Of a stretch of 33,823 nt of DNA, positions 1 to 31,120 are shown piece by piece. Made by a program: the position numbers and the translations under genes. The DNA is taken from IMG/VR virus record IMGVR_UViG_3300030116_004586, positions 1 to 33,823 of that record; one strand, given 5' to 3'. The stretch comes from a virus. Every line of letters starts with the position of its first letter. Position 1 is the stretch's first letter. The notes below the pieces were generated by a model, which did not search any database, was not told the DNA's origin, and saw only the letters and a program-made list of their open reading frames with translations.

Positions 1-315
1 CTTTAGTATGTCTCGTAGTTTCCACCAACTACGGTGTTCGACATAATACCTATACTCATATTCTTCAGCGAGTGCTTTGAAATGCTCATACAACCATTGG
101 TAATTGTCAGATGATCGCATGACCCACTGCGTACATGGGTGGTGTTCGTGAGTAATACCATAGATAGGACTATCTGATGGAGTGATGTCGTAGTCGAGGC
201 ACCTGTGAGCGGCAGACAGCATCTGCGCTGATTCCAAAGGCATCTTAACAACGTGTTTGTCACACTGCATACGAGCCGCCTGCTGCGGATCTAAGTCGAG
301 AACGAATATATTCAT
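1..315 (-). CDS. Conserved phage protein of unknown function, N-terminal part (cut by window edge)
   Basis: Reads leftwards from ATG at 315 and stays open for 105 codons to base 1, so the C-terminus lies outside the window. The product begins MNIFVLDLDPQQAARMQCDK and continues with CDKHVVKMPLESAQMLSAAHR and, later, THEHHPCTQWVMRSSDNYQWLYEHF. The pattern CDKHVVKM...AQ(M/L)LSTAHR plus a downstream H-P-x-x-x-W is familiar from proteins of unknown function in marine phages. The conserved His, Asp and Cys residues suggest a metal- or nucleic-acid-acting enzyme, but this is inference. Its start overlaps the stop of the upstream gene in an ATGA arrangement (translational coupling). A 86-residue frame on the same strand in another phase is a shadow. 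Confidence 0.8.
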   Translation of the reverse strand, partial: MNIFVLDLDPQQAARMQCDKHVVKMPLESAQMLSAAHRCLDYDITPSDSPIYGITHEHHPCTQWVMRSSDNYQWLYEHFKALAEEYEYRYYVEHRSWWKLRDILK

Positions 316-638
316 AGCTCACTTCTCCATTGTTTAATTTTATTTAACAAACTTTCGGCACACTCATGTCTGCCATAGATAATATCGTCTGTATTATCTG
401 AAGTTACACATTCGTCGTTATTATCAATAGCTTCTTTAACTTGTGCGCCATCATATACTTCTTCCTCAAGCCACTTCTCGGCTTTACCAAGCACAATGGC
501 ATCTCTAACTATTTCGTCATATACGGATTGTGGTTTTGCACGATCACTAAACAGTCCTGCTAACCATAGTATGTAGACGGTGACTACTGCCCCGCCGCAC
601 AGGAACGTCGCGACGAATAATATTATTTGATGATTCAT
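312..638 (-). CDS. Small membrane-anchored protein, unknown function
   Basis: The 108-aa product starts with one strong hydrophobic segment (about residues 5-29, IILFVATFLCGGAVVTVYIL and on), followed by a charged, mainly acidic cytoplasmic-type tail ending in a short helix rich in K/R/W. The signal-anchor layout suggests an inner-membrane protein with its C-terminus on one side of the membrane. A good Shine-Dalgarno (GGAGGG) lies about 5 nt before the ATG. Its stop overlaps the start of the next gene (ATGA), so it belongs to the leftward operon. I do not recognise the family. A role in host takeover or superinfection control would be guesswork. Confidence 0.75.
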   Translation of the reverse strand: MNHQIILFVATFLCGGAVVTVYILWLAGLFSDRAKPQSVYDEIVRDAIVLGKAEKWLEEEVYDGAQVKEAIDNNDECVTSDNTDDIIYGRHECAESLLNKIKQWRSEL

Positions 639-647
639 TTAACCCTC

Positions 648-896
648 CTATAATTCTGGTACTACTACTTTGAATGTATACCCAAGTTGCTTGATCGTAT
701 CTATTGCATTATCCGTCAACGTCGTCTTACCTGCCAGATCCGCAAACAACTGCGATTTCATACAATCAGGATATACTCGACGTATACCGTCATGATATTC
801 AACGGATACTACTAACGTGGTATTGTTAGACACAACAAGGGGATTTTGTTCTTCATACTCCCCATCAATTTCTTCAATTTTAGTTATGTAGGACAT
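648..896 (-). CDS. Small acidic hypothetical protein
   Basis: The 82-aa soluble protein has an acidic N-terminus (TKIEEIDGEYEEQNP) and a likely beta-strand-rich middle (TTLVVSVEYHDGIRRVYPDCM). It has no membrane segment and no motif that I recognise. A strong Shine-Dalgarno (GGGAGGG) precedes the ATG, and the start overlaps the stop codon of the upstream gene by one base (TAATG). It sits in the leftward early operon. The coding call rests on the ribosome site, the tight coupling on both sides and the normal composition. Confidence 0.7.
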   Translation of the reverse strand: MSYITKIEEIDGEYEEQNPLVVSNNTTLVVSVEYHDGIRRVYPDCMKSQLFADLAGKTTLTDNAIDTIKQLGYTFKVVVPEL

Positions 897-1174
897 TAGT
901 TCCCTCCCAATATTTTAGGTCGTGGTAATGGTACTTTCATAGGTTTGCTTATGATGTTAGTCTGTTTGCAACCCATCATTATATCTTTCCCATAAATCTT
1001 TTTGAAATGGGCATAGAGATTGTCTACTGACTTACTCAACTTAGCATTGTGTTGAAATACTTCTTGGCATTCGTCTTGGTTCTTGAACCAGATAACAGTA
1101 TTAACGTCGTGGTTCTCACCGTTAATCGGAAACGAATACGATATAACCAAGGCAGTTACGTATTCAATGAACAT
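896..1174 (-). CDS. Small hypothetical protein with N-terminal hydrophobic segment
   Basis: The 92-aa product starts MFIEYVTALVISYSF, which may be a short signal or membrane-associated segment. It is followed by a region with two cysteines (DECQEV and MMGCKQTN) and a proline/lysine-rich C-terminus (KPMKVPLPRPK). The two cysteines after a hydrophobic N-terminus would suit an exported protein with a disulfide bond, but this is inference. GGAGGG lies upstream at good spacing. The start lies inside the 3' end of the 47-aa gene upstream (11-bp overlap) and the stop overlaps the next ATG. Family unknown. Confidence 0.7.
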   Translation of the reverse strand: MFIEYVTALVISYSFPINGENHDVNTVIWFKNQDECQEVFQHNAKLSKSVDNLYAHFKKIYGKDIMMGCKQTNIISKPMKVPLPRPKILGGN

Positions 1175-1307
1175 GAGTTATACCCTCCAATCCGTAAGCT
1201 AAAAGTAAAAGTATATAGATTGTTAAAAAGACACAGAGCGCACCAATTATACTTTTGGTTATTTCACTCTGTGCCATGCTCAATAGGAATGTCTTGAGTT
1301 CTTGCAT
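1164..1307 (-). CDS. 47-aa single-pass membrane microprotein
   Basis: From ATG at 1307 the frame reads MQELKTFLLSMAQSEITKSI, then a hydrophobic stretch IIGALCVFLTIYILLLLAYG (about residues 20-39), and ends GLEGITHVH. It fills the gap between its neighbours and overlaps the next gene's start by 11 bp, typical of this operon. The product is an amphipathic N-terminus plus one transmembrane helix. The ribosome site is weak (AGG about 13 nt upstream). Small membrane effectors of this kind are common in phage early regions, but the role is not recognisable. Confidence 0.6.
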   Translation of the reverse strand: MQELKTFLLSMAQSEITKSIIGALCVFLTIYILLLLAYGLEGITHVH

Positions 1308-1322
1308 GATGCACCAACCTAC

Positions 1323-1631
1323 TTACGCGTTGTGTGTTTGTACTACTGATTGACTGGCGTTGATCGCATCGGTCATTGTCGCGTAGATGTAAGGCACTCC
1401 GTTAGTAACAACGAACCACATTCCTTTGTACTCTTTGATCTCGCACTTGCGCAAGGTCTGTCTCCACTTCTTGTTTACAACTTTAGCGACCCTATGCACT
1501 GCTAGTTTCTCGCTACGTGTAGCAGAAGATTTATTAATAGACCCACCATCACGTCGTGCCTTTTCTTGTGGCTTGATGTAATTGTGAGTAGCACAACGTC
1601 GTGTTTGCACACGTCTAACTTTGTTAGGCAT
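1323..1631 (-). CDS. Basic hypothetical protein, 102 aa
   Basis: The start was set at ATG 1631 (MPNKVRRVQTRRC) because AGGAGG lies directly before it. The frame is open upstream to 1697, but that part has no ribosome site. The N-terminal half is very basic (RRVQTRR, KARRDGG, RVAKVVNKKWRQTLRK), and the C-terminal half has a compact beta-like stretch (YKGMWFVVTNGVPYIYATM). This suggests nucleic-acid contact, though no known fold is recognisable. It lies 126 nt downstream of the 192-aa gene in the leftward operon. Confidence 0.7.
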   Translation of the reverse strand: MPNKVRRVQTRRCATHNYIKPQEKARRDGGSINKSSATRSEKLAVHRVAKVVNKKWRQTLRKCEIKEYKGMWFVVTNGVPYIYATMTDAINASQSVVQTHNA

Positions 1632-1757
1632 GGTAGCACCTCCTGAATATATGTAATGGAATTGGCTTGTCTCGTCAGTATCGTGTGAGCCACACACGAT
1701 AGACTAGGTGGTTTAGTCACGTTACCTCTTCTTCGGTACTCCCACCTAGTTTCGACC

Positions 1758-2336
1758 TTATGCTACTGCTTTAAGTGGCACAACTTTTGTGCTATTAGCC
1801 AACTTTTGAAGTTGAGCAATAGCGTTCTCCAAACCACCAGTAGTACTTTCTTTTACAACGGTGGCTCTTGGTCGACCCTTAAGGTCAGCATTCTCGTCAA
1901 TATTCTCATTGCCTTTCTTGACGAGCGCGATAACCATTTGGTCAAGTGTCAAGTCTTTTGCGATCTGCTTTACAGACTTCACGAAGTCAAACCAAGGCAC
2001 AACTTCTGTGTCCTCGTGTGTGTACTCGTCGTACACTGCTTGACCGTTCGCAAACTCTGAGTTGTCACGCATAGTCTTGTTTAAGCTAAACGCACCATCA
2101 GACTTGATCTTGGCAAAACCGTACTTCTCAATCCAATCGATAATAGCTTTACGGTCTTGACCTTTCACACTATCTAGCAAGTGAGTGAACATTGTCACGT
2201 CACCATGCTCATAAGAGTGCGCAGATATCTCGCAAAGAGTAGATTGTATCATTGAGCGCAAAGTCTGATTTCTATTAGAAATAGCTTTGATCTGAGCCTT
2301 AATACGCTTATTAGATGCTTTTGCGTTATCGAACAT
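1758..2336 (-). CDS. Conserved phage early-region protein, 192 aa, unknown function
   Basis: This is the first gene of the leftward operon, next to the divergent intergenic region. GGAAGGAGTT lies immediately before the ATG. The product is helical and soluble: an N-terminal KRIKAQIKAISNRNQTLRSM helix, a central stretch IQSTLCEISAHSYEHGDVTM followed by LLDSVKGQDRKAIIDWIEKYG, and a charged C-terminus. I recall this central pattern (aligned helices around HxxxHGD and a WxExxG motif) in unannotated proteins of marine short-tailed phages. No catalytic motif is visible. Its position at the head of the operon next to the iterons would suit a DNA-metabolism or regulatory partner, but that is only inference from location. 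Confidence 0.8.
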   Translation of the reverse strand: MFDNAKASNKRIKAQIKAISNRNQTLRSMIQSTLCEISAHSYEHGDVTMFTHLLDSVKGQDRKAIIDWIEKYGFAKIKSDGAFSLNKTMRDNSEFANGQAVYDEYTHEDTEVVPWFDFVKSVKQIAKDLTLDQMVIALVKKGNENIDENADLKGRPRATVVKESTTGGLENAIAQLQKLANSTKVVPLKAVA

Positions 2337-2418
2337 GATTAACTCCTTCCATTGTTTCCATGTATCAAACTAGGTGACGCCAAAGGCTTAACGAGAACTG
2401 CATTAGCTTGGAACTCGC

Positions 2419-2663
2419 ATGACGTTTCGATATGACGTTACTAATTGAGTAACCCATTGAGAAACAAGCATTATGACGTTATGACGGACAAAAAGAGTGA
2501 TACTGAAATTGTCGCAAAATCGTATGCACTACTACACACTCTAGGAAATACCATATCTCTCTTAACTAACGTCATAACGTCATAACGTCATAAAGGTCGT
2601 ACTAAATGGCTGATTTCATTGAATATTCCATTATGACGTTCCATATGACGTTTCATATGACGT
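2419..2663. repeat. Iteron array: ten copies of TATGACGTT in four groups
   Basis: Copies of TATGACGTT (or its complement AACGTCATA) fall in four groups. Group 1 is at 2419 and 2431 (plus orientation). Group 2 is at 2472 and 2480 (the second ends GG). Group 3 is three inverted copies at 2568, 2576 and 2584, tandem with an 8-bp period. Group 4 is three copies at 2632, 2644 and 2656 with an exact 12-bp period (the last is TATGACGTC). Direct, ordered short repeats of this kind are classic binding sites for a replication initiator or a repressor. The 8-bp and 12-bp periods differ from the helical repeat, so neighbouring sites would present on rotated DNA faces. Confidence 0.85.
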
Positions 2664-2723
2664 CACCTACGTTGACACATGGCGTGGACACGAGCTAATC
2701 GAGACTGACAAGCAGACAACGTG

Positions 2724-3122
2724 TTGGCACGATATACGATCGTCATGCCCACGCACAATGTGTCATGTGCTACATGAACCGTGCCAATTTTAGATATAGT
2801 TGGTCTGGAGACCTAGTGCATTGCCAAGATGCACGTCAGCCGTTTTCGTGTTGGGGAGCATTTCTGCTACTAGCCCACTCCGATAAGTCGGTAGCACTGG
2901 TTCAGCCGATCTCTTTCGAGACCCACACTACACGTGTGGGAATACGTCTTGCGCTTTACATTCGGGTACGCTCGAGAGCGCACTCACAACTAGCCTGCTT
3001 TCCACGAGGTGCAGTTAGACCCGTATCTTTAACGCGCGGTGGTTCGGCGCGTGGCTTTGGCTACTCACGTTACGTCGTCAGACGTCGCTCACAGCTAACC
3101 CAATCTGTCGGCTCGCATTGGG
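2724..3122. other. Dense array of short hairpins (structured region or possible ncRNA)
   Basis: Inverted repeats follow one another without a gene. TTGGCACG/CGTGCCAA is at 2724-2731 and 2780-2787. TCATGT-GCT-ACATGA is at 2763-2777 and GGTCTGGAGACC at 2802-2813. GTGCAT-7 nt-ATGCAC is at 2816-2834. AGCA-TTTC-TGCT is at 2857-2868, or alternatively TGCTAC/GTAGCA at 2865-2870 and 2891-2896. CCGA-TAAG-TCGG is at 2880-2891 and TCTC-TTTC-GAGA at 2910-2921. CCCACAC-TACAC-GTGTGGG is at 2922-2940. CGCT-CGAG-AGCG is at 2969-2980, or alternatively TGCGCT/AGCGCA. ACGCGC-9 nt-GCGCGT is at 3032-3052, ACGTC-GTCA-GACGT at 3072-3085 and CCCAAT-12 nt-ATTGGG at 3099-3122. The block looks clearly more GC-rich than its neighbours. 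No tRNA fold was found. Confidence 0.7.
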
Positions 3123-3152
3123 CGAACCTCAACAATAGCGAGACGTAAACAA

Positions 3153-3179
3153 GGGGGGGAGGGGACGATGGGGGGTGGG
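3153..3179 (+). other. Putative G-quadruplex motif
   Basis: Four G tracts occur in 27 nt of the plus strand: seven G (3153-3159), four G (3161-3164), six G (3170-3175) and three G (3177-3179), with loops of 1, 5 and 1 nt. This meets the usual G3+N1-7 definition of an intramolecular quadruplex. It lies just right of the hairpin block and upstream of the late promoter, in a genome otherwise poor in long G runs. Whether it acts in DNA or in a transcript is not known. Confidence 0.65.
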
Positions 3180-3263
3180 TGCTGCCCCTGGCCTTATGTA
3201 TCCCGTGTATAGCAACCCCTATTTTTTCCATTGTTCTCTTTTTGTTCTTCGTCATGCTGTTTC

Positions 3264-3299
3264 TTGACGAAAATGCTCTAGTCTGCTAACGTGTAGAAA
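3264..3299 (+). promoter_or_regulatory. Late promoter before the small terminase gene, with palindrome copy A
   Basis: TTGACG (3264-3269), a 17-bp spacer and TAACGT (3287-3292) put the predicted start of transcription at about 3299, the A of the ATG. A degenerate copy of the recurring palindrome (TGCTAACGTGTAGAAA, 3284-3299; 12 of 16 match the consensus) overlaps the -10. There is no Shine-Dalgarno before the ATG. The -10 is a poor match to TATAAT, and the case rests mainly on the identical geometry at 5059 and 7131. Confidence 0.5.
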
Positions 3300-3649
3300 T
3301 GAATGAGCGCGTAAATCATGTTATAGACCCTACAAAAGTGGCTGAGCCTATCTTGTCGCCTACTGAACTAGCTAAAATTGAGGAAGATCCGTCTCTAATG
3401 GAGACTGTTGCTCGACTATTAGGGGCGGTAAACCTCGATAATTTGTTTCGCACAATGCAAAGCCCTGAAATAAACCCGACTGCCCGTATAGAATTTCAAA
3501 AATTACTCAATAAAATGGGCAGACTAGAGCCTGATACCAAGGCAGATGTCGCTGGTGCGGGCCCGCAGGTTGTAATTAACATCACACGTGCTAAAGATCA
3601 GGAAGATGCCATCACTATAGAGGGTCAGGCAATCGATAATGGCGCATGA
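3299..3649 (+). CDS. Putative terminase small subunit
   Basis: The 116-aa product directly precedes the large terminase and overlaps its start by 11 bp, the usual place of the DNA-recognition subunit. A central helical part (PTELAKIEEDPSLMETVARL, then INPTARIEFQKLLNKMGRLE) is followed by a beta-like, poorly structured tail (PQVVINITRAKDQED). The motif ARxEFxKLLxKMGRLEPD is typical of short proteins in this slot of marine phages. No helix-turn-helix is obvious. The start at 3299 is the only suitable ATG, since the nearby ATGs at 3303 and 3318 are out of frame. The lack of a ribosome site fits a leaderless message. Function is assigned by position. Confidence 0.7.
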   Translation: MNERVNHVIDPTKVAEPILSPTELAKIEEDPSLMETVARLLGAVNLDNLFRTMQSPEINPTARIEFQKLLNKMGRLEPDTKADVAGAGPQVVINITRAKDQEDAITIEGQAIDNGA

Positions 3650-5054
3650 AATCAATTTTGAGGTCATAAAAAGCCTTGATGAGTTCTTTTACAGTGAAAA
3701 ATTCATTAGTTTAGCTGTCGGCCCCGTAGGATCGACGAAAACGACAGCAGGAATTATGAAAATTTTGCATCATTCGGCTAGAATGGCTCCATGTAAGGAC
3801 GGAATTAGGCGTTCCAGGGCGATTTGGGTACGAAATACGCGAGAACAACTGCGGGATACGTCTATTCCAGACTTTTTAAAGTGGATTCCAGACGGTGTTA
3901 TGGGTAGTTTTCTTAAAACTGAGTACAAATTTATACTAAAAGTAGGGGATATTGAGTGTGAAGTGCTCTTCAGGGGCCTTGACGACGCTAACGACGTACG
4001 AAGATTGCTGTCATTACAGGCTAGTTTCTTCATTTTTGACGAGTTTAGGGAGATACACCCCGATATTTACAACGCTGCACAGGGTAGAATAGGCCGATAT
4101 CCCGACAAAATGATGAATGGAGTGGGGTGTCAGACTGATGATGGAGAGCCTAATATGCACCTTTGGGGTATGACAAACCCCCCTGATATGGACACATATT
4201 GGGAAGATTTGCTTACAGACCCCCCTGAAAACGTCCATGTTACTCTACAACCTAGTGGTTTAAGCCCTGAAGCTGATTGGATAAAGTATTTGCCTGATGA
4301 TTATTATGATAATTTATCTCAAGGTAAGACTGAAGATTGGGTAGATGTATACATACACGCTCAGTTTGGTAAATCATTAAGTGGTCAACCCGTATTCAGG
4401 TCGTTCGATAGGTCAGTACACGTGTCCAAAGACGAGCTGAAGCCGATGTTCTCTGATGCTCCCCTTATCATAGGTGTCGACGCCGGGTTGACGCCTGCTG
4501 CGGTAATCGGCAATGTTGCGTATGACGGCAGGCTCGTCGTCTACGATGCCCTTATCTCCGACGGGATGGGCGCGCTACGCTTCATAAGAGAATGCCTGAA
4601 GCCCCTATTAGCAAATAAGTATGCTGGACGTAGGGCAATCGTTATAATTGATCCTGCGGCTTTTCAGCGCGTTCAGACGGACGAACGGACGGTAGCTGAC
4701 ATCTACAAGAACGAAGGATTTAGTATACGTCCTGCACGAACAAATGCTGTTGCTGCTAGAATTTCAGCAGTCGACAAATATTTAACACGTGTGGTAGATG
4801 GTAAGTATGGATTTATTGCCTGCCCTGTACATGCAGGAAATTTAATACAGGCTCTTGCAGGAAAATACCGATATAAAATAAATACGAAGGGGGTACGTGA
4901 CGAAAAACCAGAAAAATCCCATCCGTGGTCTGATATAGCTGATGCGTTTCAGTATTTATGTTTGCACGCTGACGGAGGTGAAGTTTTTGGAGCAGCTAAC
5001 TTTAATAAAGCAAGAAAAGAAGTTGTTAAGGTTTCAGCAGGAGGTTGGACATAA
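3639..5054 (+). CDS. Terminase large subunit (packaging ATPase and nuclease)
   Basis: The product of 471 aa drives DNA into the prohead and cuts the concatemer. The ATPase part shows a variant Walker A (GPVGSTKT, residues 28-35), a hydrophobic Walker B ending in Asp-Glu (FFIFDEF, 130-136) and a coupling motif (GMTNPP, 177-182). The RNase H-like nuclease part shows GVDAGLTP (Asp281), IIDPAAF (Asp338) and SHPWSDIADAFQY (Asp432 and Asp435), the expected acidic metal-binding set. Length and motif order are normal for the family. The start overlaps the small subunit gene and has only a weak ribosome site, which suggests coupled translation. It is followed after 39 bp by the portal gene and its own promoter-like sequence. 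Confidence 0.96.
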   Translation: MAHEINFEVIKSLDEFFYSEKFISLAVGPVGSTKTTAGIMKILHHSARMAPCKDGIRRSRAIWVRNTREQLRDTSIPDFLKWIPDGVMGSFLKTEYKFILKVGDIECEVLFRGLDDANDVRRLLSLQASFFIFDEFREIHPDIYNAAQGRIGRYPDKMMNGVGCQTDDGEPNMHLWGMTNPPDMDTYWEDLLTDPPENVHVTLQPSGLSPEADWIKYLPDDYYDNLSQGKTEDWVDVYIHAQFGKSLSGQPVFRSFDRSVHVSKDELKPMFSDAPLIIGVDAGLTPAAVIGNVAYDGRLVVYDALISDGMGALRFIRECLKPLLANKYAGRRAIVIIDPAAFQRVQTDERTVADIYKNEGFSIRPARTNAVAARISAVDKYLTRVVDGKYGFIACPVHAGNLIQALAGKYRYKINTKGVRDEKPEKSHPWSDIADAFQYLCLHADGGEVFGAANFNKARKEVVKVSAGGWT

Positions 5055-5056
5055 TC

Positions 5057-5087
5057 TGTTGACGTGTTAATGGTTTAATGATAGGAT
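5057..5087 (+). promoter_or_regulatory. Promoter before portal gene, with palindrome copy B
   Basis: TTGACG (5059-5064), a 17-bp spacer and TAGGAT (5082-5087) place the predicted start at about 5094, the A of the portal ATG. The -35 is the left arm of a palindrome copy (TGTTGACGTGTTAATG, 5057-5072). An AGGA inside the -10 could act as a weak ribosome site if transcription begins further upstream. The spacing from the first T of the -35 to the ATG is 35 nt, the same as at 3264 and 7131. Confidence 0.6.
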
Positions 5088-5093
5088 TTTTAC

Positions 5094-7118
5094 ATGACGC
5101 TTGGCCCAGCTATAATTCCTGTTGCCCGTTCTAGTGATTTAGAGGCAGCAGCAAAACGCGAGTCTGAAGACACGCAAAATCGTCCTATTGTTCAAGGTCT
5201 AGCTTCTCATGCAAGAAAACGCTGGGAAGTTATGCGGGATCATTTCCGCGACGAGCTTGAAGATAGACTTACAAAATGTGTTCGTGCTAGAAACATGGAG
5301 TACGAACCAAGCAAACTTGCTGAAATAAAAGAACAAGGTGGTTCTGAAATATTTATGGGTATTGTCAGCGCAAAGTGTCGTACCGCGACAGCTTGGCTGA
5401 GAGATACTCTTTTAGGGCAAGGAGAAGATAAACCTTGGTCTCTTTCTCCTACTCCAATTCCTGAGGTAACTCCTGATGTTGCACAGGCTATGCAAAATAT
5501 TATGCGAGAAAATTTGTTGCAGTATTATGCGGCAGGTAATCAACCTCCTTCACCAGAAGAATTAAAACAACTGGCTAGTGGAATGAAAGATACTGCCATG
5601 CGTGCAATGAAACACGAAGCCGAAAAACGTGTTGAACGTATGGAAACCAAGATGGAAGATCAGATGACAGAGGGTGGTTATACCAAAGCTCTGTTTGAAT
5701 TTACTAATGATATAGCAACATTCCCGTACGCAATTATGAAAGGGCCTATTCCACGTAAACGCAAAACTATGCAATATATGGAAGGAGGACTAGGCGTTAC
5801 AGAAGTATTTCGTGATGAATGGGAACGTGTTGACCCTTTTAAATTTTATTGGGCTCCTTGGGGCGATAATGTGCAAGACATGCCTGTTATTGAGATACAT
5901 CATTTAACCCGTGAAGATGTTGAAAATATGATAGGTGTAGAAGGTTATGATGAAGCGTCTGTTCGTTCTTTACTTATAGATTTTGGGGCAGGGGGGCTAA
6001 CGTGGTTAGACCAAGATAACCACGATTATGAAGATGTAACAAGTGTTGATATGGATGAGGCAAGTTCTGATGTAATAGCCGCTATTCAATTATGGGACAC
6101 AATTCCTGGAAGTTTACTACTAGAGTGGGGGTTATCAGAAGAAGAAGTTGAAGATCCTCATAAATCTTATCCTTGTGAAGTATGGATGGTAAATAATACT
6201 GTCATTCGTGCTGTTCTTAATTATGACCCTTTAGGTCGTAAACCTTACTACGTTACTTCATTTGAGAAAGTGCCAGGGCGTCTCGATGGTAACGGAGTTG
6301 CCGATTTATGTATGGATGCTCAAAATATGTGTAACGCTGCTGCTCGGGCGCTCGCAAACAATATGGGTATATCATCTGGCCCACAAGTCGGTGTTAATAT
6401 CAGCCGTCTCCCTGCGGGCGAGGATATCACACAGATGTATCCTTGGAAAATCTGGCAATTTCAAGCTTCTGATTATAATGATTCCTCGCCCCCCATGACA
6501 TTTTTTCAACCCAATTCTAATGCTGCAGAGCTTTTAGGAGTATTTGATAAATTCATGATTTTGGCTGATGAGGTGTCTGGTATACCTAAATATATGACAG
6601 GATCACATGTTCCTGGAGCGGGAAGAACTTCTTCTGGGCTATCAATGTTAATGAGCAATGCAGGGAAATCTATCAAGCAGGTTATAAGTAATATTGATTT
6701 TGATGTAATTCGTCCAATGCTTGAGCGTCAGTACCAAAGAAATCTAAGATACGCTAGTGATCCTGATTTAATTGGAGACGTGCAGATATTAGCGCGGGGT
6801 GCTATGTCTCTCGTCGTTAAAGAAGCTGAAGCAGTAAGAAAAAGCGAATTTTTACGTATGGTATTGGAAAGTCCAGTTGCACAACAAATTGTTGGACTTC
6901 CTGGCACAGCCGAACTTATGCGTGATATGGCGGGTAATTTAAATACAAATGTTGATCGTCTTGTACCGACACGTGAAGAAGTACAAAAAATTCAACAACA
7001 GCAGATGATGATGCAGCAAATGCAAGCAGAACAAGAAGCCGCTAACCTACAAGAAGATGGTACACCTCAAGGTGGACGACAAGATAATATAATAAGTCCT
7101 AGACCAAATGGACAATAA
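5094..7118 (+). CDS. Portal protein (head-tail connector)
   Basis: The 674-aa protein is placed between terminase and scaffold. The length and helical, Trp-rich core fit podovirus-type portals, which form a dodecameric ring at one capsid vertex through which DNA passes. Stretches typical of the family include the N-terminal KRWEVMRDHFRDELEDRL helix, EIFMGIVSAKCRTATAWLRD, a wing region with ERVDPFKFYWAPWGDN, and DADEVSGIPKY-like and GAGRTSSGLSMLM segments before the long C-terminal helix. The extreme C-terminus is Gln/Met-rich (IQQQQMMMQQMQAEQEAA) and then disordered. The start ATG has little leader, see the promoter at 5057. The gene is preceded and followed by its own palindrome copies, so it may be a single-gene transcript. 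Confidence 0.92.
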   Translation: MTLGPAIIPVARSSDLEAAAKRESEDTQNRPIVQGLASHARKRWEVMRDHFRDELEDRLTKCVRARNMEYEPSKLAEIKEQGGSEIFMGIVSAKCRTATAWLRDTLLGQGEDKPWSLSPTPIPEVTPDVAQAMQNIMRENLLQYYAAGNQPPSPEELKQLASGMKDTAMRAMKHEAEKRVERMETKMEDQMTEGGYTKALFEFTNDIATFPYAIMKGPIPRKRKTMQYMEGGLGVTEVFRDEWERVDPFKFYWAPWGDNVQDMPVIEIHHLTREDVENMIGVEGYDEASVRSLLIDFGAGGLTWLDQDNHDYEDVTSVDMDEASSDVIAAIQLWDTIPGSLLLEWGLSEEEVEDPHKSYPCEVWMVNNTVIRAVLNYDPLGRKPYYVTSFEKVPGRLDGNGVADLCMDAQNMCNAAARALANNMGISSGPQVGVNISRLPAGEDITQMYPWKIWQFQASDYNDSSPPMTFFQPNSNAAELLGVFDKFMILADEVSGIPKYMTGSHVPGAGRTSSGLSMLMSNAGKSIKQVISNIDFDVIRPMLERQYQRNLRYASDPDLIGDVQILARGAMSLVVKEAEAVRKSEFLRMVLESPVAQQIVGLPGTAELMRDMAGNLNTNVDRLVPTREEVQKIQQQQMMMQQMQAEQEAANLQEDGTPQGGRQDNIISPRPNGQ

Positions 7119-7127
7119 ATGTACAAT

Positions 7128-7159
7128 CTGTTGACACGTTAACACATATTTAGTATTAT
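7128..7159 (+). promoter_or_regulatory. Strong sigma70-like promoter with palindrome copy C; leaderless geometry
   Basis: TTGACA (7131-7136), a 17-bp spacer and TATTAT (7154-7159) make a near-consensus sigma70 promoter. Six T residues (7160-7165) then lead straight into the ATG at 7166, so the predicted start is the A of the ATG and there is no Shine-Dalgarno. The palindrome TGTTGACACGTTAACA covers 7129-7144. The 22 bases 7128-7149 recur exactly, as reverse complement, at 31099-31120. Confidence 0.75.
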
Positions 7160-7165
7160 TTTTTT

Positions 7166-7399
7166 ATGATTGACTTGAATCTTTGTGATCAGCAGCAAAT
7201 TAACGCGCTGCTAAAAATTAAAGAAACAGGCAATACTGCCTTAATAGCTTTGCTAGAAGGGCAAATTGATAAAGCCGTTTCGCGGTTAATACAAGCAGAT
7301 GACATGGCCTTAATCCACCGTCTGCAAGGTCGCTGCGAAGCATTTAAAGATTTACTGACGGCGATTGAAGATTCGCCTAAAGTAGTTAACCGCTCGTAA
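7166..7399 (+). CDS. Small helical protein between portal and scaffold
   Basis: The 77-aa soluble product is mostly alpha-helical: DQQQINALLKIKETGNTALI, then LLEGQIDKAVSRLIQADDMA, then HRLQGRCEAFKDLLTAIEDS. Small proteins with the ending RLQGxxxAxxxLLxxIExSP are common between portal and scaffold genes in marine phages, so a head-assembly role is likely but unproven. The strong promoter-like sequence directly before it makes it the probable first gene of the scaffold-capsid transcript. The ATG at 7166 has no ribosome-binding site and fits translation of a leaderless mRNA. Confidence 0.75.
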   Translation: MIDLNLCDQQQINALLKIKETGNTALIALLEGQIDKAVSRLIQADDMALIHRLQGRCEAFKDLLTAIEDSPKVVNRS

Positions 7400-7480
7400 G
7401 AGCAAGACGAAGCAGACCAAAGACGGGAGCAGCTTACCAACGGCGCTGCAAAACAGAGTTGGAGCTTTAAGGAGAAAAAT

Positions 7481-8500
7481 ATGGCGTTGCCAAAACAGGT
7501 ACAGAAACAATTAAAGGACGTTGAAGAATTAGAGAAAGCGTTACAAGCCCAATCCGGAGTTACTAAAGAAGAAACTTCTAAAGAAGCAGATTCTGAAAAA
7601 ACAGAAGCAAAAGCTGAAGAAAAAGTAGACGGAACGGAAACTAAACCAAAAAACTCTAAAAAAACTGAATCTAAAAAAGCTGAACCTGCGGAAGTAAAGC
7701 CAGCTGACATGTCGCCGACGGACGTAGAGGACGATTTTAAGCAGAAGTACAATACCTTACGAGGTAAGTACGACGCTGAAGTTCCCCGGCTTCACCAACA
7801 AGTGAAGCAATTAACGGATGAATTAAGCGCTTTTCGAAATGAAATGACTGCAAAAAAAGAAGAACCGACAAAGCCGAAGGAGAAAGTTAGTTTAGTGACT
7901 GACGCAGATCGAGAAGAATTTGGTGAAGATTTACTGAACGTCCAGCGTAAAGTTGCAAAAGAAGTTTCGAGTGAATACGAAGATCGTCTTGAGCAACAAG
8001 ATAAACTTATCAAGGCTTTGCAAGAAAAAATTGCAGGTACTGATAAACAAGTTGGAGAAGTCGGGTTTAGTCAGAGATTAATTAATTTAGTTCCTGATTT
8101 TGCCGAAATTGACAACGATGAACGCTGGGTAGCGTGGCTTAATGAGCATGATCCTATGCTTAGAGGGGCACGAAGGATTCAGGCACAGGCTGCATTTGAT
8201 CGAGGTGATGCTGAAGCTATAGCAGATTATGTAAAGCTTTGGAAATCATCGCTCTCTGAAACATCAAAGGAACCTGAAAAATCAGATCCTCAAAAAGAAC
8301 TTGAAAAGCAGGTCGCGCCAAATCGTAGTGCAAACTCCGTAAAAACGCCGACTAACCAAAATGGCAAAATCTATTCTTCAAAGGATATGGATAGTGCTTG
8401 GACTAAGGTAAGAACGCTTAATACAAGGGGAAAGTACGAAGATGCGGCAAAACTTGAAGCAGAATTGACTGCTGCCTATATGGAAAATCGAGTAAGATAA
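7481..8500 (+). CDS. Capsid assembly scaffolding protein
   Basis: The 339-aa, very charged protein lies directly before the capsid gene. Residues 1-80 are rich in Lys, Glu and Ala (low complexity, probably disordered). A long coiled coil follows (about residues 85-190, with KYDAEVPRLHQQVKQLTDEL and YEDRLEQQDKLIKALQEKI), and the C-terminal part contains YSSKDMDSAWTKVRTLNTRG and a helical end. Acidic, coiled-coil composition and position are the hallmarks of phage scaffolds, which template the prohead and are then lost. AAGGAG precedes the ATG. The 81 bp upstream hold no further gene. Confidence 0.88.
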   Translation: MALPKQVQKQLKDVEELEKALQAQSGVTKEETSKEADSEKTEAKAEEKVDGTETKPKNSKKTESKKAEPAEVKPADMSPTDVEDDFKQKYNTLRGKYDAEVPRLHQQVKQLTDELSAFRNEMTAKKEEPTKPKEKVSLVTDADREEFGEDLLNVQRKVAKEVSSEYEDRLEQQDKLIKALQEKIAGTDKQVGEVGFSQRLINLVPDFAEIDNDERWVAWLNEHDPMLRGARRIQAQAAFDRGDAEAIADYVKLWKSSLSETSKEPEKSDPQKELEKQVAPNRSANSVKTPTNQNGKIYSSKDMDSAWTKVRTLNTRGKYEDAAKLEAELTAAYMENRVR

Positions 8501-8547
8501 TCTGTAAAAAGCAGCCGTCTTAACAACTTAACTTAAGGAGGCCCAAT

Positions 8548-9558
8548 ATGGCTGCTGTATTCCCCGTCGTAGGCTCCGGCTCATTCGACACAAATCCGAG
8601 TTACTCGGGCACGTTTATTCCTCAGTTATGGAGTAATAAACTTAACGCAAAATTTTATGCGAACACCATGATGACTGAAATTGCTAACACTTCTTGGGAA
8701 GGCGAAATCAAAAATCAGGGTGATACTATAACCATCCGAACTGCACCATCAATCACAATTAATGATTATGCAGGCGCGGGTACAACATTAACCAACGAAG
8801 TTCCAACCCCAGTGACTGTAGATATGCAGATCGACAAAGGTAAATACTTCTCTGTTCAAGTCAACGACGTGTTAGCGCACCAAGCAGACATGGACTTAAT
8901 GAATATGTTTACTGATGACGCTGCAAAACAGTTGAAAATATCAATCGAAAACGAGTGTTTCTTTCAGTATTTTGTAACTGCTGGCGCAGCTGCTGCTAAT
9001 AAAGGCGCTACTGCTGGTGCAAAATCTGCTGGATATAATCTTGGTACAGATACTGCTCCAATTGATCAGGCAACACCTGCAAATGTGCTTAAAGCCATTC
9101 TTGCAATGTCTGCAACATTGGATGAGCAAAACGTACCAGAAGATGGTCGTTGGTTGATTATTTCACCATTTGATCGTCAGCTACTTATGCAGACAGATAT
9201 TGCTCAAGCTTATTTTACTGGGGACGCGTCAAGTACCGTTCGTACTGGTAAAATCGGAATGCTTGATAGATTTACTGTTTATGTGTCTAACCTGCTTCCA
9301 AAAGGTCAAGCTGGTAAAGCACTTGTGGCAGGTCTGTCAGCTACATCATCTGGTGCTACAGTTTCTAATGCTAAAGTTAGACGTATGATGGTAGCTGGTA
9401 CTTCTGATGCTTGTGCGTATGCTTCGCAAATTAGCAAAACTGAGCCTCTACGTAACCAAACTGATTTTGGTGATATAGTGCGTGGCTTAGCAGTGTATGG
9501 GAGAAAAGTTATTAAAAACGAAGCTCTATGTACTGCTCTAGTAGGTTCAGCAAGTTAA
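8548..9558 (+). CDS. Major capsid protein
   Basis: The 336-aa product is compatible with an HK97-fold coat protein of the P22/podovirus-related type. A beta-rich N-arm (SGTFIPQLWSNKLNAKFYAN) is followed by a loop with NQGDTITIRTAPSITINDY, the spine-helix region VDMQIDKGKYFSVQVNDVLA, and an A-domain with DGRWLIISPFDRQLLM and IGMLDRFTVYVSNLLP. The last 40 residues hold FGDIVRGLAVYGRKVIKNEA. The strongest Shine-Dalgarno of the left half (AAGGAGG) fits very high expression, and a GC hairpin immediately follows the stop. Position after the scaffold is as expected. Confidence 0.95.
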   Translation: MAAVFPVVGSGSFDTNPSYSGTFIPQLWSNKLNAKFYANTMMTEIANTSWEGEIKNQGDTITIRTAPSITINDYAGAGTTLTNEVPTPVTVDMQIDKGKYFSVQVNDVLAHQADMDLMNMFTDDAAKQLKISIENECFFQYFVTAGAAAANKGATAGAKSAGYNLGTDTAPIDQATPANVLKAILAMSATLDEQNVPEDGRWLIISPFDRQLLMQTDIAQAYFTGDASSTVRTGKIGMLDRFTVYVSNLLPKGQAGKALVAGLSATSSGATVSNAKVRRMMVAGTSDACAYASQISKTEPLRNQTDFGDIVRGLAVYGRKVIKNEALCTALVGSAS

Positions 9559-9565
9559 CACCCTA

Positions 9566-9587
9566 GAGGGGGCGTAAAAGCCCCCTC
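9566..9587 (+). terminator. GC-rich hairpin after the capsid gene (terminator-like, no U-tract)
   Basis: GAGGGGGC (9566-9573), loop GTAAAA and GCCCCCTC (9580-9587) form a perfect 8-bp stem eight bases after the capsid stop codon. No run of T follows (GCAATTTGG), so it may attenuate transcription or protect the 3' end of capsid mRNA rather than end transcription fully. The next gene's ribosome site (GGAGA) begins shortly after. Confidence 0.7.
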
Positions 9588-9605
9588 GCAATTTGGAGAT
9601 TTGCA

Positions 9606-9881
9606 ATGGATATATACAAGCTACTTGAAAAACTTGATGGAGAAATTGTTAGCAATAAAGCAATGGTTGTAATTGACGGTGACCCTGTTGAAATAGGCGG
9701 AATTGTTGATAATGAGTTTCAACTTAATGAACGAGGAATGGAACTTGCAGCCGCCCATAAAGATTCTCCTGCACCTGCATCCACAAAACGAAAGCGTGCG
9801 CGTAATGAAGATGGAACCTTGAAAGCAGACGATCCCAGCACGCCTAACATAAATGAGGCTTGGGAACATGGCGACGATTAA
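9606..9881 (+). CDS. Small head/neck-region protein, unknown function
   Basis: The 91-aa acidic protein has an N-terminal part YKLLEKLDGEIVSNKAMVVI followed by beta-like VDNEFQLNERGMEL. A basic patch KRKRAR (about residues 62-67) and a disordered acidic end (EAWEHGDD) follow. GGAGATTTGCA precedes the ATG. The last 14 bases overlap the next gene. The position between capsid and adaptor genes suggests a head-decoration or head-completion role, but no family is recognised. Confidence 0.7.
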   Translation: MDIYKLLEKLDGEIVSNKAMVVIDGDPVEIGGIVDNEFQLNERGMELAAAHKDSPAPASTKRKRARNEDGTLKADDPSTPNINEAWEHGDD

Positions 9882-10566
9882 AGTTATAGATGTAATTTCA
9901 CGCGTTGAATCAATTTTACAGGACACAAATGTTCGGTGGCCTCGGCTAGAATTGCAAAAATGGCTAAATGAATCGTACCTAAGCATTGTTCTTCTTAGAC
10001 CTGACGCAAATGCAAAATGTGCAACATTTACATGTGCTGCTGGGTCAAAACAAGAATTAACAGCTACAAGTGGAGGATTTCCCTCTGCTTTACGCTTATT
10101 AGATGTTACTAGAAATGTTAAAACTGGGTCTCTTAAAAAAGTGGTTAGAGTTGTTGATAGAGCTGTTTTAGACGATCAACGTCCTGGTTGGCACGCGGAA
10201 ACACAAACAGATAACATCCAACACTACACATATGACCCACGTAACCCAAAACAGTTTTATGTGTATCCGCCTGCTACGGCTGTAGCTCAGTTAGAAGTCG
10301 TCTACGCAGACGCGCCTGGTTCGCACACAATGACGGAAACACAGTTAGACCCTGCAAATAACGATACAGCAGTTATTTTGCTTGATGATATTTATCTTAG
10401 CCCAATTACAGATTGGATTTTATACCGAGCATACTCAAAAGATGCTGAATATGGGGCTAATGAAGCTAGAGCTGTAGCTTCTTACCAAGCATTTAACGCT
10501 GCAGTAGGTACAAAAACACAGGTAGACGCGGCTGTAACGCCGACGCCAGGAAGTACGGTGACATAA
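9868..10566 (+). CDS. Head-tail adaptor protein (first neck protein)
   Basis: The start was chosen at ATG 9868 (MATIKVIDVISRVESILQDT) because GAGG lies nine bases upstream. An in-frame ATG at 9853 has no ribosome site. The product is 232 aa. The N-terminal stretch VISRVESILQDTNVRWPRLELQKWLNE is the recurring signature of phage adaptor proteins that sit below the portal in short-tailed phages. Later features are YDPRNPKQFYVYPPA and a helical C-terminal half with YLSPITDWILYRAYSKDAEY. The gene overlaps the next one (TAATG). I recall this family as a DUF (DUF6682-like) with adaptor annotation; the DUF number is from memory. Confidence 0.85.
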   Translation: MATIKVIDVISRVESILQDTNVRWPRLELQKWLNESYLSIVLLRPDANAKCATFTCAAGSKQELTATSGGFPSALRLLDVTRNVKTGSLKKVVRVVDRAVLDDQRPGWHAETQTDNIQHYTYDPRNPKQFYVYPPATAVAQLEVVYADAPGSHTMTETQLDPANNDTAVILLDDIYLSPITDWILYRAYSKDAEYGANEARAVASYQAFNAAVGTKTQVDAAVTPTPGSTVT

Positions 10567-11207
10567 TGGCAACTATAACTTGGGACAAATTTTATCCGTA
10601 TATACAACCTTACGTGCCTGGATGTCCTGAAATTGTAATGGAATCTCATCTTCAAGAAGCGGCAGCTAAGTTTTTTGAAAGAAGTGAAGTATGGCGTTTT
10701 GATATTGAAAAAGATTTTGCTGTTAAAAATGTTGCTGATTATGCTATTTTTCTTCCTTCTAACGAAGCTGTATTAGAAAATGTTTACGAAATAGTACTTG
10801 ATGGTAGATGTATTCCTCGAATAACAGATAGACATTTAAATTCTACAGCTTTTACAGAAAATGCCTGTCCTAAGTATTATTCTATTTACCAAGATTCTTC
10901 TATAAAGTTTTATCCTACTCCTGACGCCAAATATGAATTTACGGGTATTGGTGTTCTTAAAACTAAACTTACAGCAACAGGAATTGAGGATTGGATTTTT
11001 GAGTCTCATGGTCGTTGTATATCTTATGGAGCTATTTCTCAATTAACATCTGTTCCTAATAAAGAATGGAGCAGTCCTGAGTTGTCAGTTTATTACCATC
11101 AGAAATTTTTAAGAGAAGCAGATTCAGCTAAAACACGAGATTATCGACGTGTCGGAATGCGTGTTCGTGGCCCGAGCTTCACAGGTACAAGAAGGGTGGC
11201 ATACTAA
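10566..11207 (+). CDS. Second neck/adaptor (tail tubular A-like) protein
   Basis: The 213-aa product begins MATITWDKFYPYIQPYVPGC and continues with AAAKFFERSEVWRFDIEKDF, a helix pair seen in neck proteins that follow the DUF6682-type adaptor. The middle is beta-rich (NEAVLENVYEIVLDGRCIPR, KYYSIYQDSSIKFYPTPDAK) and the C-terminal part contains ISQLTSVPNKEWSSPE followed by a basic tail. The layout (helices, beta sandwich, helices) and place are those of T7 gp11-type gatekeepers, but sequence identity to gp11 was not tested. Both ends overlap neighbours (TAATG, TAATGA). Confidence 0.75.
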   Translation: MATITWDKFYPYIQPYVPGCPEIVMESHLQEAAAKFFERSEVWRFDIEKDFAVKNVADYAIFLPSNEAVLENVYEIVLDGRCIPRITDRHLNSTAFTENACPKYYSIYQDSSIKFYPTPDAKYEFTGIGVLKTKLTATGIEDWIFESHGRCISYGAISQLTSVPNKEWSSPELSVYYHQKFLREADSAKTRDYRRVGMRVRGPSFTGTRRVAY

Positions 11208-11542
11208 TGAGCACATCATTTAATTACGTCCAAGGTGATACTGGCCCTCAAATTAAACTTACATTTACTGATGAAGATACAAATACTGCTACAGATTTAA
11301 CTGGAGCAACTGTAACATTGCATTTTAGAGCTGCAGGAGAGTCAACTGTTTTATTTTCTCGAACTGTTTATGTAAACCCTGATACAGCTGATACGGGTAT
11401 TGGAGTTATTCAGTGGCAAACTAATGACCTTAATCAAGAACCTGGAACCTATGAAGGTGAGATAGAAATTGTCCGTTCAACAGGTTTAAGAGAAACAATT
11501 TATGATATCCTCAAATTTAGAATACGAGAGGATTTTGCATGA
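11207..11542 (+). CDS. Ig-like phage structural protein (BppU N-domain type)
   Basis: The 111-aa product has the pattern VQGDTGPQIKLTFTDEDTNT, then LTGATVTLHFRAAGESTVLF and GVIQWQTNDLNQEPGTYEGE. This is the small beta-sandwich that precedes or anchors fibres, related to the N-terminal domain of lactococcal BppU-type upper baseplate proteins (family statement from memory). The 'D-LTGAT-V' and 'PGTYEGE' turns are the clearest markers. It is coupled to its neighbours by ATGA and TAATG overlaps and is the first gene of the fibre block. Confidence 0.75.
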   Translation: MSTSFNYVQGDTGPQIKLTFTDEDTNTATDLTGATVTLHFRAAGESTVLFSRTVYVNPDTADTGIGVIQWQTNDLNQEPGTYEGEIEIVRSTGLRETIYDILKFRIREDFA

Positions 11543-12396
11543 AATTAAAATCAGCAGTATTTATTGATGCTCTCAAGGTAGCTTTTACGCAGCTTAAAAC
11601 CACTATGACTGCGGAAGAGTATCAAAATATTAAAATGAAAGCAGAGATTGGTAATTTTATGCTCTTTGCTGAGTATCTTGATAATTTAAATGTACGAGAT
11701 GGTGTTGGAACGCTAGATGGTGCAGCTTTGTCCTTCTTTAAAACACTTACTGATAATGCTTCTGCTGCAGAACAAGCAACAATTACATTTATTAAAGGTC
11801 TAGGAGCTACAGAAACAGTATCTATAGCTGATGATGGAGATCTTGTTCGAGGTCTTGCGCGTCCTCTTTTTCATACGTCTTTAGTATCTGAGTTAATATC
11901 GAAAGACGTTCCTAAAGTATTTGCAGACGGTGCATCAATTGCCGAAGACGCTGCTTCTTTAGAATTAGGTAAAGGATTATCAGAAGCGCCTTCAGTAGCT
12001 GAGCAGTTAGAACCTTTTGTTTTTGGTAAAAACCCAAGTGATAGTCCTGTGTTTAGTGATGCAATAAATATTAAAGCTATAACAAAACTTTTTACAGAAC
12101 TTGTTGATGCAACAGATGACATCGACGGAGCTGCAACAACACAAGATGATCAAGAGTTACAGTTTGCTAAAATTACTACAAATACTGCGGCTCTTACAGA
12201 TGCTCTTTCAATTGAAATGACTTTCAATAGAGCGTTTGCAGAGACGTTTGGAGCGACCGATGGAGACGTTTTAGATTTTGGAAAACGACCATCAGAAACA
12301 CCCTCGATTACCGACGCAGGGTCATTAAGAAGTCAGGGATATTCTGATTTCACTTATTTTTTGGAAGATTACGTCGGTGCTTCCCGAACCTTTTAG
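11539..12396 (+). CDS. Repeat-containing virion protein ending in QGY-DFTYF-EDYVGASRTF
   Basis: The 285-aa product is acidic. The N-terminal 60 residues are helical (LKVAFTQLKTTMTAEEYQNI). The remainder is built of loosely repeated units of about 20-35 residues with the cadence F-x-x-G-K-x-x-S-(E/D)-x-P-x-(I/F)-(A/T/S)-D (for example FGKNPSDSPVFSDAI and FGKRPSETPSITDAG). The end, SQGYSDFTYFLEDYVGASRTF, is a highly characteristic C-terminus that I recall from marine phage structural proteins of variable repeat number. It is probably a virion surface or fibre-adaptor protein. Confidence 0.75.
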   Translation: MKLKSAVFIDALKVAFTQLKTTMTAEEYQNIKMKAEIGNFMLFAEYLDNLNVRDGVGTLDGAALSFFKTLTDNASAAEQATITFIKGLGATETVSIADDGDLVRGLARPLFHTSLVSELISKDVPKVFADGASIAEDAASLELGKGLSEAPSVAEQLEPFVFGKNPSDSPVFSDAINIKAITKLFTELVDATDDIDGAATTQDDQELQFAKITTNTAALTDALSIEMTFNRAFAETFGATDGDVLDFGKRPSETPSITDAGSLRSQGYSDFTYFLEDYVGASRTF

Positions 12397-23372: not shown

Positions 23373-23398
23373 TGCTATAAAGTATTAACGCGTTAACA
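23373..23398 (+). promoter_or_regulatory. Extended -10 promoter with palindrome copy D
   Basis: TGCTATAAA (23373-23381) is an extended -10 sequence. The palindrome TATTAACGCGTTAACA (23383-23398) covers the predicted start (about 23388) and runs directly into the ribosome site AGGAG of the 35-aa gene. The centre TTAACGCGTTAA is a perfect 12-bp palindrome, as expected for a dimeric regulator site. Confidence 0.6.
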
Positions 23399-24688: not shown

Positions 24689-24704
24689 CAATAACGCGTT
24701 AAAG
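24689..24704 (+). promoter_or_regulatory. Palindrome copy E before the nozzle gene
   Basis: CAATAACGCGTTAAAG (three bases after the endolysin stop) matches the TGTTAACGYGTTAACA consensus at 11 or 12 positions, and its right arm merges with the strong ribosome site AAGGAGGT (24702-24709). A clear -35/-10 pair is not evident (TATAAC at 24677-24682 is a weak candidate -10). Confidence 0.5.
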
Positions 24705-24715
24705 GAGGTACATAT

Positions 24716-28513
<3,798 letters not shown>

Positions 28514-31098: not shown

Positions 31099-31120
31099 AT
31101 ATGTGTTAACGTGTCAACAG
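31099..31120. promoter_or_regulatory. Palindrome copy F, 22-bp inverted copy of the 7128 element
   Basis: The 22 bases are the exact reverse complement of 7128-7149. The palindrome TGTTAACGTGTCAACA is at 31104-31119, and its right arm merges with the ribosome site AGGAG (31119-31123) of the GNAT gene. On the minus strand the copy would carry the TTGACA of the 7131 promoter, pointing leftward. A possible plus-strand -35 is TTGTCA (31083-31088), with TAACGT 18 bp later. Confidence 0.65.

Follow-up and report, generated by a model that had tools for sequence, protein, structure and literature searches.

Genes and promoter sites of the head module

The whole stretch of DNA analysed here (hereafter the window) is an uncultivated virus record of 33.8 kb in which a head module is present. 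Matches over the cut-off to PF23899 (portal) and PF24175 (adaptor) were found, which identifies a phage with SU10-type (podovirus-like) portal. Its group of SU10-portal-type tailed phages is widespread, abundant and mostly uncultured, with hundreds of relatives in IMG/VR. Searches of IMG/VR resulted in 479 portal, 225 terminase and 597 capsid relatives, and the best 80 of each were read. Upstream regions of relatives were gathered with tblastn, and redundancy was removed at 90% identity. Among deposited phages no relatives at the DNA level were found. Relatives at the protein level, such as Rhizobium phage RHph_TM3_14A, were set aside due to their other layout, in which terL is on the opposite strand and the portal gene is without this promoter. 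Distant portal relatives infect alphaproteobacteria. A contig of a Geobacteraceae MAG was considered for naming the host, and its portal identity of 41% is too little for this. The features of the module are as follows.

3264..3269, plus strand: -35 element TTGACG of the terS promoter (ATG 3299)
3287..3292, plus strand: TAACGT, -10 element of the terS promoter; part of a GTTAACGTGT / GTGTTAACAC palindrome in relatives
3299..3649, plus strand: probable small terminase (terS), 116 aa; adjoins terL, predicted leaderless, Shine-Dalgarno energy 0.6 kcal/mol (none)
3639..5054, plus strand: terminase large subunit (terL), phrog_2, E 2.6e-28; start overlaps terS
5059..5064, plus strand: -35 element TTGACG of the portal promoter (ATG 5094), within the palindrome 5057..5072
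5082..5087, plus strand: -10 element TAGGAT of the portal promoter; includes an AGGA Shine-Dalgarno 7 nt before the ATG
5094..7118, plus strand: portal protein, PF23899 4.6e-10, phrog_332 2.5e-62
7131..7136, plus strand: -35 element TTGACA of the promoter of the 77-aa gene (ATG 7166), within the 16-bp palindrome 7129..7144
7154..7159, plus strand: -10 element TATTAT of the promoter of the 77-aa gene
7166..7399, plus strand: 77-aa gene between portal and scaffold, the strongest candidate for a leaderless message
7481..8500, plus strand: scaffold-position gene, Shine-Dalgarno-led, phrog_13678; downstream cistron of the promoter of the 77-aa gene
8548..9558, plus strand: major capsid protein, Shine-Dalgarno-led, phrog_267 7.9e-56

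The 116-aa gene at 3299..3649 matched no Pfam or PHROG family, and it is labelled small terminase by its position beside terL only. Between the phrog_1448 gene and terS (window 2337-3299), many copies of TATGACGTTA / TAACGTCATAA were observed in both orientations. They resemble the iterons or operators of an origin or control region.

A first-pass annotation of this DNA had described three promoters, TTGACG at 3264, TTGACG at 5059 and TTGACA at 7131, each with a 17-bp spacer and six bases between -10 and ATG. Positions, spacers and gaps could be read from the sequence for all three sites. The strict pattern TTGACN-N17-TAnnnT has four matches on both strands of the window, and three of them are these sites, with an ATG exactly 35 nt away. 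In 200 dinucleotide shuffles of the window, the mean number of strict matches with an ATG at 34-36 nt was 0.06, and the maximum of two was reached once. A general promoter scan of window positions 1-12000 revealed no excess of promoter-like sites (30 found, 26.8 expected). The signal is the spacing to the ATG together with its conservation, not the number of promoters. The -10 element of terS, TAACGT, agrees with TATAAT at just three positions.

Spacing and ribosome sites among the relatives

The proposed 35-nt geometry was found to be kept in relatives for the 77-aa gene and terS, but for the portal gene it is restricted to the window's clade. A lack of conservation had been named in the first-pass annotation as a refutation, and the prediction thus withstood this check for two of the three genes. 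Among 56 non-redundant upstream regions of the 77-aa gene, TTGAC lies 35 nt ahead of the ATG in 44, 36 nt in five and 34 nt in one, i.e. at 34-36 nt in 50/56; these relatives are not independent samples, though identities go down to 46-59% in the group and to 46% for the 77-aa protein. With a scoring that favours TA and a 17-bp spacer, the spacer was 17 and the first two -10 positions were T and A in 53/53 scored promoters, and T at position 6 was present in 43. For terS, TTGAC was detected 35-37 nt ahead of the ATG in 29/34 non-redundant relatives (34-37 nt in 30/34). The distribution is bimodal with 12 cases at 35 nt and 15 at 37 nt, thus the predicted leader is 0 or about 2 nt. In about half of these relatives the gap from -10 to ATG is 8, which could give a leader of 1-3 nt.

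The -10 hexamer ends 6-8 nt before the start codon in 49/56 relatives for the 77-aa gene and in 29/34 for terS, and for the portal gene in the window's clade only. In terS relatives it reads TAACGT, TAACAC or TAGCAT-like. The final T occurs in about 80% of the relatives for the 77-aa gene and less often for terS and the leaderless portal relatives. By sequence, the sites of the relatives have the elements of sigma-70-type promoters, a TTGACA-like -35, a spacer of 17 +/- 1 and a TAnnnT -10. ATG was the start codon in all relatives checked (34/34, 56/56 and 39/39), and it is preceded by a pyrimidine in 33/34 cases for terS and 49/56 for the 77-aa gene, as at a Y/R transcription start. In the alignment of the 77-aa gene, columns 4, 5, 8, 11, 13 and 14 are invariant. 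Coding starts at this ATG, since the variation is mostly at wobble positions from codon 2 on.

Wider searches gave comparable results. The window and the contigs of 11 relatives contain 31 strict promoter matches, and 15 of these stand exactly 35 nt ahead of an ATG. Searching IMG/VR for the geometry returned 109 contigs with the 17-bp spacer and five with a 16-bp spacer as control. For the palindrome TGTTGACACGTTAACA, discussed below, an ATG at 35 nt was found in 42 of 61 distinct contexts.

The absence of a Shine-Dalgarno site from two of the three genes, as described in the first-pass annotation, applies to terS and the 77-aa gene, and strong ribosome sites were indeed present at scaffold (AAGGAG) and capsid (AAGGAGG). 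Of 39 starts examined in the window, just one more, at 9853, has no such site, and this gene overlaps the preceding one. Anti-Shine-Dalgarno energies in relatives were at shuffled level for terS and the 77-aa gene and far stronger for scaffold, capsid and most other genes; a site was found in 38/38 scaffold and 45/45 capsid genes. Furthermore, folding over the first 40 nt is weak in terS and the 77-aa gene (-2.0 and -3.4 kcal/mol) compared with capsid, scaffold and portal (-6.4 to -8.9 kcal/mol).

The portal gene has a different history. Most relatives carry the same promoter, but its -10 is separated from the ATG by 26-34 nt, corresponding to a leader of about 20-27 nt. In a tree of 84 portal proteins the members with leaderless geometry are nested inside those with a leader, hence the leaderless portal is a derived state within the window's clade. 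The other six members with this geometry have lost the final T of the -10. In the same region of the tree are members in which an additional reading frame was acquired between promoter and portal gene. A sub-clade with such an additional small ORF was noted separately (L228 5505-5718; L011-L014, L016, L018). A leaderless message is likely for the window's portal, too, but the case is weaker than for terS and the 77-aa gene.

The first bases of three contigs (L207, L198 and L186) correspond to bases 10, 14 and 16 in the 77-aa gene. The contigs come from three datasets and make up three of the four below 4 kb noted among those examined, a pattern spotted post hoc; a further scan for short contigs gave no new one. 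Over the 3.6 kb ahead of the capsid gene, 76 contig 5' ends were counted, duplicated loci included. Taken as a uniform background, they predict about 0.5 ends within the initial 25 nt of the 77-aa gene. Of the datasets 3300005234, 3300019276 and 3300023685, some may be metatranscriptomes. The contig starts are a hint at a 5' end at the AUG if they derive from transcript assemblies; they may be metagenomic.

terS and the 77-aa gene are best explained by leaderless messages, which are probable judging from the sequence. Such messages, predicted at first for all three genes, are supported for these two by the kept spacing and the missing Shine-Dalgarno site. For the portal gene the spacing is found in the window's clade only, and the portal of the window itself has AGGA. 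Alternatively, the promoters could be real but minor, with terS, portal and the 77-aa gene made mostly from read-through messages by Shine-Dalgarno-independent initiation behind a leader. The genes follow one another in the same orientation at short distances, and AGGA precedes the portal ATG in the window. Starts with a leader and without Shine-Dalgarno exist in the group, since the portal gene has a leader of 20-27 nt in most relatives, yet its Shine-Dalgarno energies are no better than shuffled. We consider read-through unlikely as the main source, because a start behind a leader needs no fixed distance between -10 and ATG, yet this distance is kept while the surroundings diverge, and because a pyrimidine stands nearly always directly before the ATG, as at a transcription start.

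Observations on the scaffold gene concern the role of the promoter. In the Geobacteraceae MAG contig mentioned above, TTGACACGTAAGCACGTTAGTAATATCTT (L233 8321-8435) was found after, not before, the small portal-adjacent gene, and the same kind of promoter leads the scaffold gene with a leader of roughly 80 nt. This outlier suggests that the promoter serves constantly for the expression of scaffold and capsid, with the leaderless first cistron as an arrangement of the window's group. The scaffold leader of the window itself (7400-7480; AAGCAnACCA...GGGAnCAGCnTACC...GGGCGCTGnn...AACAGAGTTGGnGCTTTAAGGAG) shows strong conservation among relatives whose scaffold identity is 56-80%. It is predicted to form a small hairpin, and no Rfam match was obtained for it or elsewhere in the window. 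Possibly, it is a regulatory RNA element.

A repeated palindrome at promoters and gene starts

In the promoters of the portal and the 77-aa gene, TTGAC makes up the left arm of TGTTRACRYGTTAACA, a palindrome composed of two inverted TTRAC half-sites and absent from the first-pass annotation. The following copies were located in the window.

5057..5072, plus strand: palindrome TGTTGACGTGTTAATG with partial right arm, containing the portal -35
7129..7144, plus strand: 16-bp palindrome TGTTGACACGTTAACA, containing the -35 of the 77-aa gene
23385..23396, no strand assigned: palindrome core TTAACGCGTTAA, directly before an AGGAG site and ATG 23410
24691..24702, no strand assigned: palindrome core ATAACGCGTTAA, directly before AGGAGG and ATG 24716
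31099..31120, minus strand: palindrome, an exact 22-nt reverse-complement copy of 7128-7149, directly before AGGAG and ATG 31129

The core T[AG]AC[AG][CT]GT[CT]A occurs five times in the window, always immediately ahead of a gene. Its copy at 31107 would be coding only via a GTG start, and ATG 31129 is the likely start. Three copies directly precede the Shine-Dalgarno sites of tail-region genes. In 12 sequences of the group, the 14-bp form was counted 118 times compared with 19.9 in shuffles, and 72 copies are located in the 12% of the DNA that is non-coding. In relatives the palindrome lies over -10 and start of terS, not over the -35, and it is often found about 50 nt ahead of the capsid gene. 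A related palindrome, GTTTACATGTAAAC, was noted in an early region (G001:C1, about 26990-27039, minus strand), where it follows a strict promoter and stands at the predicted start. Judged from its placement, the palindrome is most likely the operator of a regulator, probably a repressor. A promoter-blocking operator would fit these positions.

If the element is mainly an operator, the fixed distance to the ATG could originate from a regulator bound at the gene start, and TTGAC...TAnnnT would be a by-product of the palindrome. The conservation and enrichment of the palindrome agree with this, as do the three copies directly before Shine-Dalgarno sites in the tail region of the window. We rate this explanation as improbable: TA(nnn)T of the 77-aa gene (-13 to -8) is not part of the palindrome and TTGAC of terS stands apart from it, yet both are kept, and the near-invariant 17-bp spacer is left unexplained.

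The two inverted, -35-like half-sites could also be read by a phage factor, e.g. a free-standing sigma region 4 protein, which steers RNA polymerase to palindromic -35 elements. Free-standing Sigma70_r4 proteins were identified in two relatives (G001, G002).

L216:15136-15444, minus strand: free-standing sigma-70 region 4 protein, 102 aa
L214, about 14017-14238, minus strand: free-standing sigma-70 region 4 protein, 73 aa, much like the end of host RpoD

Such a protein was not found in the 57.6 kb of a third relative (G003), which keeps palindrome and promoter, and the window is without that genome region. It was therefore rejected as a general reader of the palindrome, and we regard a factor of this kind as very improbable. 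A search for T7-like RNA polymerase (PF00940) gave no match, but the control genomes gave none either, thus the result is no sign of absence. Finally, a chance resemblance picked by eye agrees with the lack of a general enrichment of promoter-like sites in the window, but is practically negligible with three sites against 0.06 in shuffles and a spacing kept in dozens of diverged relatives.

Proposed start mode and relation to known systems

The leaderless reading preferred here goes beyond what the sequences show, namely the sites, their kept spacing, the missing Shine-Dalgarno and the clustering of the palindrome in non-coding DNA, in that precise 5' ends, the way of translation and a regulator are inferred. 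At terS and the 77-aa gene, sigma-70-type promoters would direct transcription from the A of the start codon or from 0-2 nt earlier; at the portal gene this would apply to the window's clade only. Host RNA polymerase would thereby produce a message beginning with AUG, and its first cistron would be translated by leaderless (AUG-recognising, 70S-type) initiation. Later cistrons would start ordinarily, terL through its overlap with terS, scaffold and capsid from their strong Shine-Dalgarno sites. The palindrome, over the -35 of the portal and the 77-aa gene or over -10 and start of terS, would serve as the operator by which the regulator times these promoters. A leaderless first cistron would be made from its own promoter only and not by read-through, thus the supply of portal and terminase would be separate from that of scaffold and capsid. 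Whether late protein levels are tuned in this way, as the first-pass annotation proposed, is a matter of hypothesis. Tentatively, and with somewhat more doubt than trust, we propose a rule for the whole group across deep divergence: promoter-proximal packaging and head cistrons may be leaderless and later ones Shine-Dalgarno-led, with a repeated palindromic operator that has the -35 as one half-site. One regulator would then switch the late messages, and leaderless initiation would tie the first cistron to its own promoter.

Leaderless translation is common in some alphaproteobacteria, and for Caulobacter crescentus 375 leaderless mRNAs were reported, translated as well as leadered ones (PMC4117421). 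The features are alike, namely a -10 that sets the start on the start codon, no Shine-Dalgarno, AUG and little 5' structure. Those messages were mapped in a cellular genome, whereas here packaging and head genes of a phage are concerned and the messages are predicted from sequence. Mycobacteriophage L5 possesses stoperators and start-associated sequences, repeated in intergenic gaps. A single short motif is likewise repeated here in intergenic gaps near gene starts, but with another sequence, a palindromic design and promoter overlap. In Thermus phages the middle and late genes are leaderless, and the hosts are rich in leaderless messages. Among phage genes, lambda cI is named as leaderless (PMC9031893). 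These cases have in common with the messages predicted here that phage genes are read from a 5' AUG. In contrast, cI is a lysogeny repressor while terminase and head-module genes are affected here, and, unlike in lambda and the Thermus phages, a large phage group shares the arrangement. For Deinococcus-Thermus, a -10 motif directly before the ORF was described, and the spacing to the ATG affects expression (PMC12340547). The -10 is directly ahead of the ORF in our phages too, but these in addition retain a complete TTGAC -35 at 17 bp, overlapped by the palindrome.

Leaderless phage genes are usually discussed as single cases, such as lambda cI, or in hosts rich in leaderless messages. With the arrangement conserved here in packaging and head genes of an abundant, uncultured phage group, it is plausible that leaderless translation belongs permanently to a lytic programme. 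Starts of this type may be misassigned by gene callers that depend on Shine-Dalgarno sites. The repeated palindrome is a concrete target for finding the late regulator, and the kept spacing between promoter and AUG makes an unusual start mode of phage late genes directly testable.
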